64,000 nucleotides of DNA from contig NZ_CP087998.1 in NCBI RefSeq assembly GCF_021044585.1, positions 124,001-188,000 of the forward strand. Direction: 5' to 3'. The stretch's first letter is position 1; every line of letters starts with the position of its first letter. Both the position numbers and the translations under genes were made by a program. The notes below the pieces were generated by a model. It worked only from the letters and a program-made list of their open reading frames with translations. It was not told the origin of the DNA and made no database searches. Shown here one piece after another: positions 14,556 to 18,413 of this stretch. This stretch comes from Sulfurimonas sp. HSL-3221. GTDB taxonomy: Bacteria; Campylobacterota; Campylobacteria; Campylobacterales; Sulfurimonadaceae.

Positions 14556-16631
14556 ATGTATTACCAAACCCCCGACGTTACCAAGTATGTCGATGCCGTT
14601 GCCCGCTTCAGGGGCTATATCATCGCCGCCTACCTCCTGCTCTTCTTTGCGGTCCTGGCCGTTTACCACCCCAGGGTCCTCTCATCGGACGCGATGTTCT
14701 GGCTCAAAGACTCCGCCGAGATGCAGCGGAGCGAAGCGAACCGCTACACCCCCCACCTGCTTTCCAAACTGACGGTCCATGTCGATGCCTTCGACGAAAC
14801 GACGAGGGAGGCGCTGCACGAGCTCAATGACCGGCTCGGGGCACTCGAGGGGGTGGACGAGGTCTACTCGCTCTTTAGCAAAGAGCAGAGCGCGATCGGC
14901 GGCACATCGGAGATGGTCGGCGTTGTCAGTACCGGTGACCTGGATACCTTCCGTCTGGAAAAGCTCGTCAAGGAGCGTTTCAATGCCTACGGGAACGTCG
15001 TCGATGCCGATTTTAAAACGTTCCGCTTCTTTATCAGCGCGCAAAGCGCCGTCGACCTCGGCGGCCTGGCAATACCGGGAAGTTACACCTATACCGCGAC
15101 GAATGAGAGCGTTGACTGGCCGGAGCTGATCCGCTACGGGGTCGTCCTGCTGCTGACCATCTTCATGGTTTTTCGGTTTCTTTTCAGAAACTACATCTCC
15201 GCGATCAGCGCGGTTGTCGTCATCACCTTCAGTACGCTCTTTACCTTTGCGCTGATCTACGGGCTGACGGGAATAGCTGCCGTCCACATGACGATGCCCT
15301 TCATCACCATCAGTATCGTTCTCGTGGATTTCCTCTTCTTCTATTACCGCTGGCACGTTTCGCAGTACAAGATCGACAAGCGCAATGCCCTCATCAAGAT
15401 GCTCAACCGCAGCTCCGCACCGGCGCTCTGGACCTCCGTGATTACGGCCCTGGGGCTGGGAAGCCTGCTCTTTATCGATTCGGACATCATCCGGCTGCTC
15501 TGTCTGGGGGTGATTTTCTCCTCCATCGTCGGGTACGTCATCAACCTCACCTTCCTGCCGGCGCTGCTGAGCTACTTTGAGCTGGAGCATACCCATATCC
15601 CCTACGCGAAGATGGGCTATTTTTTCGCGTCGAGCGAGCTGCATTACAACCGGAAGTTCCTCCACCTCTTCCTGGGAGTGACTTTCGGACTTATGGTGCT
15701 CGGCGGGTCGATGATCTACAGCGAAAGCAGCCGTTTCTTCAATCTCAACGTTGTCAACGACCAGATCCAGCTCAAGATCCCCTATGCCCGCATCGACCTC
15801 GAGCTGATCCGCTCCATCGACCGTTTTACGGAGGCGATGGGGGAAAAGTTCGGGGAGGGGTTGGGGGAGGTCGTCTCCCTTTCGACGATCGTGCAGAGTC
15901 TCAACGATGCCAATTCCCAGACGGACACGCTCGACGACGAGGCGCTGATGCAGGCGCTCTTCTACCTCGATCTCTACGGGATGCGGGAGAGCTACTACGA
16001 TGCGGATGCGGTCAATATCCGGATCAACCTCTTCGATGTCGACAAACTGGAACTGATCGACTGGCTGGCGCGCTACAGTGCGTTGGACATCTACTTCGTG
16101 GACAAGGAGACGCTCCTCGACAGCGCGAAGTTCAACAAGACGCTACTGCTCTCCACGTCGCTCTTTTCGGCCCTGCTAGTTATCGGGCTCATTACGGGGT
16201 GGATCTTCCGTTCCGTGGCGATGGTCTTTGTCGGCTTCATCGTCAATGCCGTACCGATCGCCTGGTTCGGCCTGCTGGTGCGGCTGCTCGACGTGCCGCT
16301 GAGCCTGGAGATGCTCATTGCCATGACCATCGCCGTCGGACTGGCCTCGGACGCGACGATCCACTTCGCGTACAAGTATTTCCGGGCACGTTATATCGGG
16401 AGGAGCCGGAAACACGCGCTGGAGAAGATGTATTTTTATTCGGGGATCCCGGTCATTATCGGGTCGGCGGTGCTCATTGCTGTCTTCGTGGCGCTCTACC
16501 TCTCTTCACTGCAGTCGCTGCAGCTCATCGGTCTCTATAGCGCCGTGCTCGTGTTTATCTCGCTGCTGACGGACCTCTTCGTCCTGCCGGTCATGCTGCT
16601 CTTTATCGACCGGTTCGACCGGGGAAGATAA
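14556..16631 (+). CDS. RND superfamily (MMPL-type) membrane transporter
   Basis: A 691-residue inner-membrane protein with two copies of the RND half: a first TM near residues 22-42, a large periplasmic loop (about 45-185), a five-TM bundle (about 190-345), a TM near 370, a second loop and another five-TM bundle (about 528-685). The helices contain FITISIVLVDFLFF and MTIAVGLASDATIHFAYKYFRARY, the latter typical of MMPL/hopanoid-type exporters. Substrate is unknown; lipid or hydrophobic export is usual for the family. It lacks adjacent membrane-fusion or outer-membrane partners. A related C-terminal fragment lies at 17045-17176. Confidence 0.82.
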   Translation: MYYQTPDVTKYVDAVARFRGYIIAAYLLLFFAVLAVYHPRVLSSDAMFWLKDSAEMQRSEANRYTPHLLSKLTVHVDAFDETTREALHELNDRLGALEGVDEVYSLFSKEQSAIGGTSEMVGVVSTGDLDTFRLEKLVKERFNAYGNVVDADFKTFRFFISAQSAVDLGGLAIPGSYTYTATNESVDWPELIRYGVVLLLTIFMVFRFLFRNYISAISAVVVITFSTLFTFALIYGLTGIAAVHMTMPFITISIVLVDFLFFYYRWHVSQYKIDKRNALIKMLNRSSAPALWTSVITALGLGSLLFIDSDIIRLLCLGVIFSSIVGYVINLTFLPALLSYFELEHTHIPYAKMGYFFASSELHYNRKFLHLFLGVTFGLMVLGGSMIYSESSRFFNLNVVNDQIQLKIPYARIDLELIRSIDRFTEAMGEKFGEGLGEVVSLSTIVQSLNDANSQTDTLDDEALMQALFYLDLYGMRESYYDADAVNIRINLFDVDKLELIDWLARYSALDIYFVDKETLLDSAKFNKTLLLSTSLFSALLVIGLITGWIFRSVAMVFVGFIVNAVPIAWFGLLVRLLDVPLSLEMLIAMTIAVGLASDATIHFAYKYFRARYIGRSRKHALEKMYFYSGIPVIIGSAVLIAVFVALYLSSLQSLQLIGLYSAVLVFISLLTDLFVLPVMLLFIDRFDRGR

Positions 16632-16641
16632 TGCCTGCCCG

Positions 16642-16896
16642 TCAGTGGCAAATGGCGTCGGTCACCGCGAAGGTTTCATCGGGGGTGTAACTGCAGTCGG
16701 CGAGGTCGCTGCGCACGGAGGGAGCCGTGCGCGGTTCGGCCGTCTCGCTAATTGCGGCCTTGCCGTCGCTAGTCGGGGAAGCCGTAGCCGCTACTTTGAT
16801 ACGGGGCTCCTGGGGCGTTTCATGGGCCAGAGCGAATGCCGGAACGAAAAGCAGTCCGGCCAACAGCAGTGAGGCGATAGAGCGGTTCCGCTTCAT
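16642..16896 (-). CDS. small secreted hypothetical protein
   Basis: 84 residues, starting at the ATG 16896 behind a perfect AAGGAGA (16901-16907, minus strand). MKRNRSIASLLLAGLLFVPAFALA is a clear signal peptide; the mature ~60 residues are rich in Ala, Thr, Pro and Glu and end in DAICH with a second Cys in LADCSY, so an intramolecular disulfide is possible. A TATCCT -10 lies at 16930-16935. It converges on the RND gene with only ten bases between stops. No recognised family. Confidence 0.6.
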   Translation of the reverse strand: MKRNRSIASLLLAGLLFVPAFALAHETPQEPRIKVAATASPTSDGKAAISETAEPRTAPSVRSDLADCSYTPDETFAVTDAICH

Positions 16897-17016
16897 TGCG
16901 TCTCCTTGAGTGTTCTGATGCAGTAATGTAGGATAAATTTTCTTGTTTGCGGTTTTCGTTACGGCGTTAAGGAAATGCTTAAGGATCGGAAAAAATAAGA
17001 AGGGAAGTAAAAAAAG

Positions 17017-17043
17017 TGGTGCGGACGAGAGGACTTGAACCTC
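17017..17043 (-). repeat. tRNA-Leu 3' end remnant, 27-base direct repeat copy 1
   Basis: Identical over 27 bases to the 3' end (CCA end, acceptor and most of the T arm) of the intact tRNA-Leu(TAG) at 18174-18200, and ends abruptly where RND-like coding sequence begins. It cannot fold as a tRNA. The repeat pair brackets 1.16 kb and looks like a site-specific or homologous recombination scar at a tRNA gene. Confidence 0.75.
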
Positions 17044-17044
17044 G

Positions 17045-17176
17045 CAGCTCATTGGTCTTTATGGTGTCATTTTGGTTCTGATCTCGCTGCTGACGGATCT
17101 CTTCGTGTTTCCGGCCATGCTGTTTGTTATCGACCGCTTTGACGGAAAGAAAAAGATGATCGGGATCACCGACTGA
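17045..17176 (+). pseudogene. C-terminal remnant of an RND/MMPL transporter gene
   Basis: An open stretch of 43 codons ending at TGA 17174-17176, without a start. It reads QLIGLYGVILVLISLLTDLF and onward, matching the end of the exporter at 14556-16631 in about 25 of 33 residues and about 77 of 99 bases by my hand alignment, then diverging into a Lys-rich tail. The match begins exactly where the tRNA-Leu remnant ends. It is therefore the tail of a second, older RND paralog whose 5' part has been deleted, rather than a recent duplicate. Confidence 0.7.
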
Positions 17177-17189
17177 AATCGTTCCGCCG

Positions 17190-18101
17190 CTAGAAGGCAA
17201 TAGAGACTATGAAGCCGTAAGGAGTAGGAGAGATGGTGTAAGTTTGCGCCTTTTCTCCGTGCGCGGTTTTGGTGTAGCTGTAGACGGTTTCATGCCCGAT
17301 CCAGGTTCCGATGATGCCGCCGGCTACGAGATCGCTGACCCAGTGCTGATGCCCTTTGATAGCGGATGCAAACAAAACACCGGCACCCAGATAGGGGAGC
17401 CAATACGAGTCGTAGACTTCGGCGACGACGCGTGCGACGCTAAAATACATTGTCGTATGAAACGAGGGCATGGAAGTTCCGTCCTGCTCCGTGTTAAATG
17501 TCGGTGGCCAGTGCCAGTTCCCGAAATCATAGGGGTCACAGGTATGGTAAATGCTTCTTGAGTCTGTGCAGTTTTTCAAATCATCCATCGGGCGCTGTCT
17601 ACCCGTAAGGGTTTTCAGGATGACGTGGCTGATGGCATAAGAGTAAGCCGTAGCTTTTATCGCTAATAATGCGGCAGCCTGTGTTCGTTCGTCACCGAGG
17701 GCAACCCCTCCAAGATAGGAGAAAGCCATGCCGTAGGTCAGCCAGCTGTCGGCGCCGGTGCGCATCAATTTTGTCATACCGCTGTGGGGAAAGATCGTAT
17801 CCAGGGAATAGTCTATATTGGACTCGATATTCTCTTGGTAAAACGTCGTTGTAGGCTTGTCGACCAGAACGAGTCCACCGACGATGCCCAGGGCCGTCAG
17901 CGATTTTTCCGGGTACAAAAAGGGGTCTACCGCAAAGTTGTACAGATCGGTGGGGACGGCGAAGAGGACTTTTTTGAAGGTTTTTGAGGCGACCCCCATA
18001 TCAAAATAGGTACCGTTTTGATACTGATAATCTTGCGCGGCGGCAAATGTGGAAAGGGTTAATATAGCGAGTAAATAGCATTGTCGGAGTTTTTGATACA
18101 T
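17190..18101 (-). CDS. PAP2 superfamily phosphatase-like protein
   Basis: 303 residues with a signal peptide (first ~22 residues, ending FAAA). The phosphatase motifs are recognisable: KTLTGRQRP at 163-171 (motif 1), PSFH at 212-215 (motif 2; Phe replaces the usual Gly) and S246...H253...D257 in SAIKGHQHWVSD (motif 3, where the customary Arg after Ser is Ala247). Members dephosphorylate lipid phosphates at the membrane or periplasm. The coding sequence is visibly AT-richer than its neighbours and lies between two tRNA-Leu sequences, so lateral transfer is plausible. Activity is uncertain given the altered motif 3. Confidence 0.78.
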   Translation of the reverse strand: MYQKLRQCYLLAILTLSTFAAAQDYQYQNGTYFDMGVASKTFKKVLFAVPTDLYNFAVDPFLYPEKSLTALGIVGGLVLVDKPTTTFYQENIESNIDYSLDTIFPHSGMTKLMRTGADSWLTYGMAFSYLGGVALGDERTQAAALLAIKATAYSYAISHVILKTLTGRQRPMDDLKNCTDSRSIYHTCDPYDFGNWHWPPTFNTEQDGTSMPSFHTTMYFSVARVVAEVYDSYWLPYLGAGVLFASAIKGHQHWVSDLVAGGIIGTWIGHETVYSYTKTAHGEKAQTYTISPTPYGFIVSIAF

Positions 18102-18173
18102 GATTAGACAGCCTACAGTATTAGGGTGCGATCATTTTAAGAAAATAAGCTTAAGGATTAAAGCGTATGAAGA

Positions 18174-18259
18174 TGGTGCGGACGAGAGGACTTGAACCTC
18201 CACACCTTTTGGGCACCAGATCCTAAGTCTGGCGTGTCTACCAATTCCACCACGTCCGC
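18174..18259 (-). tRNA. tRNA-Leu (anticodon TAG)
   Basis: 86 bases with encoded CCA. The acceptor GCGGACG pairs with CGTCCGC; CCAGA/TCTGG encloses loop CTTAGGA giving anticodon TAG; a long variable arm is present. It is the last gene of the five-tRNA operon, and its 3' 27 bases are repeated at 17017-17043. Confidence 0.96.
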
Positions 18260-18325
18260 ATAATCGTTCAGAGGTTTGAACGGATATGATTTTTTCATCG
18301 GAAACAGCGAAGCATATTTCCAAAA

Positions 18326-18399
18326 GCACCAAGGGTGCGCGAGCCTGCTGCTGAAGTAAACACAGCGTTAGCGTAGTCAAACGGGCTTTTGCTCGTTTG
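18326..18399. other. two hairpins between tRNA-Leu and tRNA-Arg
   Basis: GCACC/GGTGC (18326-18338, loop AAG) and a nine-pair hairpin with loop TTTT (18378-18399, arms CAAACGGGC and GCTCGTTTG, one G-T pair). They lie in the 154-base spacer of the tRNA operon and may be processing or termination signals. No gene is seen in the spacer. Confidence 0.35.
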
Positions 18400-18413
18400 G
18401 CGTATAAATCAAG

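Follow-up and report, generated by a model that had tools for sequence, protein, structure and literature searches.

A duplicated tRNA-Leu 3' end in Sulfurimonas sp. HSL-3221 probably marks the old import of a foreign allele of the same locus

The direct repeat of a tRNA-Leu 3' end described here is best explained by an old allelic import, in which foreign DNA from the same locus would have been joined to the chromosome by homologous recombination on one side and by illegitimate recombination on the other. We put the probability of this reading, which is drawn from sequence comparisons, at roughly 60%. The duplication is real, and we explain it as an old horizontal transfer, ordinary in kind. 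The window, that is, the whole stretch of 64 kb that was analysed (G000:C1:124001-188000), belongs to a 2.52-Mb single-contig genome, G000, and all positions given below are those of the window.

By direct sequence comparison, the 27 bases at 17017-17043 (TGGTGCGGACGAGAGGACTTGAACCTC) are identical at 27/27 positions to those at 18174-18200, with an offset of 1157 bases between the copies, and this pair is the sole exact direct repeat of at least 24 bases in the whole 64-kb window. The bases next to the two copies do not match, with G/A on the left and G/C on the right. Since ARAGORN calls a tRNA-Leu(tag) on the minus strand at 18174-18259, the repeat represents the 3' end of this tRNA, and the right copy, with T-arm, acceptor stem and CCA, is part of the intact tRNA-Leu(TAG) gene. 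The 1157 bracketed bases consist of the C-terminal tail of an RND transporter gene (tail B) and a PAP2 gene. Both the exact duplication at this distance and the bracketed content had been reported in the preliminary description and were confirmed here, the latter by a PF01569 match and by 77% identity with the end of the intact RND gene. Plain decay of a tRNA gene at 17017 was rejected, as the other tRNA bases are missing and RND coding sequence is abruptly in their place.

On the left, the locus begins with an intact resident RND/MMPL-family transporter gene (14556-16631, plus strand, PF03176), which carries tail A at its 3' end and whose protein is 97.4% identical in amino acids to that of G004 and about 89% to those of G005 and G007 at the same locus. 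Between its stop codon and the ancestral spacer lies a small orphan gene of 84 aa (16642-16896, minus strand) with an N-terminus resembling a signal peptide; searches of Pfam, PHROGs and the remaining genomes of the genus gave no match to it, and within the genus it is unique to G000. Tail B (17044-17176, plus strand) holds, at 17045-17176, the final 43 codons of an orthologous RND gene, apparently from another species, with no 5' part. The PAP2 superfamily phosphatase-like gene (17190-18101, minus strand, 303 aa) matches PF01569 with an E value of 4e-11. It had been described as AT-richer, and this holds: its GC content is 50.8% versus 58.6% for the window, and its GC3 is 0.60 versus 0.81 for the RND gene. 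An intergenic repeat of about 80 bases at 18322-18405 is dispersed, with 12 matches in G000 and 22 in G006; it was present in 8/8 genomes of the genus searched, and an Rfam search gave no match to it.

The ancestral layout could be read from relatives. The locus is shared by four congeners (G000, G004, G005 and G007), each with a single-contig genome. In G005, 110 bp separate the RND gene from a tRNA-Leu 3' end, and in G007 a spacer homologous to that of the window adjoins the RND gene. In local alignments, positions 16902-17003 matched the G005 and G007 spacers with z values over shuffles of 11.5 and 8.2, respectively, and we regard this stretch as the ancestral spacer between the RND gene and tRNA-Leu. 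Because the spacer matches both relatives and that of G005 ends at the tRNA, the alignments firmly indicate that 17017 is the original position of the tRNA-Leu 3' end; the left copy (17017-17043, minus strand) is the ancestral tRNA-Leu(TAG)'s own 3' end, now displaced, and hence the 1157 bases beyond it are an insertion. An empty site is also present, as both G005 and G007 have no PAP2 segment at the locus, and in G005 the spacer leads directly to the tRNA-Leu 3' end. Such a site fits an element integrated into a tRNA, and it also fits homology-facilitated illegitimate recombination (HFIR).

The inserted DNA is foreign. Homologues of PAP2 were found in only 3/228 genomes of the family (E value of 1e-20 or better), namely G000, G004 and a genome of another genus, which carries a 54% relative at an unrelated locus. 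No donor of PAP2 was found in GTDB genome contigs, in 399 genomes sampled from the order or in the 228 genomes of the family, nor did plasmids, phages or IMG/VR yield a match. At the DNA level, tail B shares about 77% identity with tail A and with the G005 and G007 tails, the latter two being 88-89% identical to tail A. Its nearest relatives are the same-locus RND genes of the genus (about 76% aa identity), all others reaching 48-67%, and its order and orientation with respect to tRNA-Leu are those of the resident interval. This pattern of divergence points to a source in a gene orthologous to the neighbouring RND gene, from a species just outside the four, and together with the collinear arrangement it shows that the insert is a foreign second allele of the RND-to-tRNA interval. 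A tandem duplication of the RND tail within the lineage was disfavoured, since the gap between tails A and B exceeds that among the four species. The insertion proposed in the preliminary description stands insofar as the repeat marks an insertion edge and the PAP2 segment, found in so few genomes and missing from the locus in G005 and G007, is foreign; its interpretation of the pair as attL and attR is not supported.

The left junction bears directly on this last point. RND homology begins at 17044, the first base past the 27-mer. The residue preceding the motif QLIG is Leu in 26/26 other distinct RND tails. In tail B it is Ser, as two of the three bases of that codon are contributed by the tRNA. 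With tRNA bases in place of a conserved Leu codon, no overlap of the integrase type is visible at the left join, and provided that the Leu codon was retained in the donor, the RND side would lack the bases shared at the crossover. Residue conservation, from which the donor bases were predicted, indicates that the join at 17043/17044 was blunt and made without homology. A tyrosine-integrase product requires several identical bases across the exchange. Between the 27-mers no integrase or mobile gene was found, the RND tail and PAP2 standing there alone, and the four integrase genes of G000 all lie away from the bracketed DNA.

An integrase element inserted into the tRNA-Leu 3' end, with attL at 17017 and attR in tRNA-Leu and with the integrase and most genes since deleted, would also leave a direct repeat of a tRNA 3' end around the insert, as is found here at 27/27 bases. 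This origin is unlikely, even though the repeat runs from the T-arm to CCA and nearly fills the T-arm and acceptor stem, a usual target of integrases, and the left side holds the old tRNA end, which is also its place in G005. Moreover, tRNA-Leu(TAG) is targeted in two of the congeners, with tyrosine integrases adjoining the displaced tRNA ends, so that the more general view of the site as an integrase target, put forward in the preliminary description, is borne out. In G005, an island of about 21 kb (L036:4197-4254 to L037:8608-8665) is bordered by a repeat of 57-58 bases with copies 20.9 kb apart; a tyrosine integrase lies beside the displaced tRNA end, and a ParA-like protein and a type I restriction-modification system are encoded inside. 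In G004, a 7-kb element (L035:5214-12353) carries an endonuclease I gene and a DUF6538-type tyrosine integrase, the latter adjoining a displaced tRNA-Leu of almost full length, from whose T-arm 13 bases are missing in the alignment. The hotspot has had three different outcomes among four congeners; the literature was searched for tRNA-Leu as an island hotspot in the phylum, and nothing was found. Nevertheless, as an att residue the window locus would need to carry as cargo the tail of an orthologue of its target's own neighbour gene, in collinear arrangement, and to be joined bluntly against a conserved Leu codon; no mobile genes are left, and PAP2 is unmatched in plasmids, phages and IMG/VR. 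The absence of an integrase, the nature of the insert as a second allele of the interval and the blunt left join argue against the 27-mer pair as attL and attR, and it is probably not such a residue.

An identical blunt join would also result if RND/tRNA-Leu units, or copies of tRNA-Leu, had formerly stood in tandem and a deletion had begun within the first tRNA-Leu and extended into the RND gene of the second unit. A tRNA-Leu(TAG) pair does occur in G031, of another genus of the family, and paired matches were found in G040 and G047 too; the G031 pair is in tandem, at L042:5132-5354. However, an intact double unit was not seen in the genus, and with tails A and B at 77% identity versus about 88% among the four species, any duplication within the lineage would need to be an old one that was lost elsewhere. 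We find this history decidedly improbable.

The age of the import can be judged from G004. Its RND gene is A-type before and B-type after a single switch inside TTATCGACCG, and the 3' end of tail B, PAP2 and a decayed tRNA-Leu follow contiguously. The fusion of the two tails is clear, and it is the pattern that would be expected from recombination between tail A and tail B in a window-like ancestor, dropping the stretch with the 27-mer. Between G000 and G004, dS is 0.291 for RND, 0.292 for an SNF transporter and 0.341 for PAP2. As the PAP2 value is near the other two, PAP2 was vertically inherited since the two lineages split, after one old acquisition, and the segment must already have been there before the split. 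With a dN/dS of 0.07 between the two genomes, PAP2 is under purifying selection. The 7-kb integrase element was taken up by G004 later than the PAP2 import. The preliminary description had named, as evidence against an insertion, relatives with the same segment and repeat at vertical-inheritance distance: G004 has the segment at such a distance and does not have the repeat, and the distance dates the import and does not undo it.

In the G000 lineage, the 27-mer should have gathered about 2 to 4 changes since the split, and the chance of none is about 2-13%, as estimated from the spacer and from G000/G004 divergence. An intact 27-mer is mildly unexpected if it has been drifting since then, which is the chief point for a later origin of the 27-mer arrangement. 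According to such a scenario, the PAP2 allele is old and the arrangement younger and specific to G000, a PAP2-less allele (A-type RND, spacer and tRNA end) having been re-imported and illegitimately joined to a resident B-type tail. The perfect 27-mer and an orphan gene found only in G000 would agree with it. Nonetheless, the RND body of G004 is A-type with ordinary divergence (dS 0.291), so that a separate event would be required, and a single import followed by a single deletion in G004 is simpler. We therefore consider a re-import very unlikely.

Under the preferred reading of an allelic import, the interval in the ancestor of G000 and G004 would have run from RND through a short spacer to tRNA-Leu, which is the arrangement of G005 prior to its island. 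This ancestor would have acquired DNA of a putative congeneric donor in which the same interval read RND', PAP2, tRNA-Leu. On the right side, recombination may have proceeded through the common homology of tRNA-Leu and the tRNA cluster; on the left, the incoming end, broken in the RND' tail, would have been joined without homology inside the tRNA-Leu of the resident chromosome, at a distance of 27 bases from the 3' end of that gene, presumably at acquisition and not by a later deletion. The resident RND gene would have been kept, the intact tRNA-Leu would come from the incoming allele, and the 27 bases would be the remnant of the old tRNA. Natural transformation is a plausible route of uptake, and genes for ComEC and DprA are present in the G000 genome. 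The Leu-Arg spacer proved uninformative as a marker of the donor tract, consisting mostly of dispersed repeat, and the adjoining tRNA genes are too conserved to show the right edge of the import. It is most improbable that an integrase acting in trans on a pseudo-att site in the RND' tail and on the tRNA-Leu core excised a chromosomal RND-tail/PAP2 circle that was then integrated at the tRNA-Leu of a new host, an origin that, if true, would amount to site-specific capture and transfer of plain chromosomal DNA with no element of its own.

A duplicated tRNA 3' end is the customary sign of integrase-mediated insertion. The window locus suggests that it can also come from one-sided homology, through which a foreign version of the locus is pasted in. 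Programs that find genomic islands from tRNA repeats would make a false positive of this locus, and duplication of a tRNA end alone should be taken as no proof of integrase action.

When compared with known systems, the PAP2 protein passes the Pfam cut-off of PF01569 and, held by purifying selection, is an ordinary member of that superfamily. The locus is like tRNA-targeted integrative elements in that its insert stands between an intact tRNA and the displaced 3' end of a tRNA, and unlike them in that its insert has no integrase and no mobile cargo, is collinear chromosomal DNA and has a blunt junction. Tyrosine-integrase products show several identical bases over the exchange, whereas the left join of the window shows no visible shared overlap. 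One-sided homologous and illegitimate integration is a known process, HFIR, in which a homologous anchor on one side and a non-homologous join on the other lead to the addition of foreign DNA (PMC3240628). Unlike HFIR as so defined, the window case is deduced from a fixed, old locus, and its anchor side is not delimited. In common with HFIR, the foreign DNA appears to stem from a homologous locus, tail B being the end of an orthologue of its neighbour, the resident RND gene, and collinear with that gene, and one junction, that at 17043/17044 with the donor bases taken from residue conservation, is non-homologous and likewise without visible overlap.
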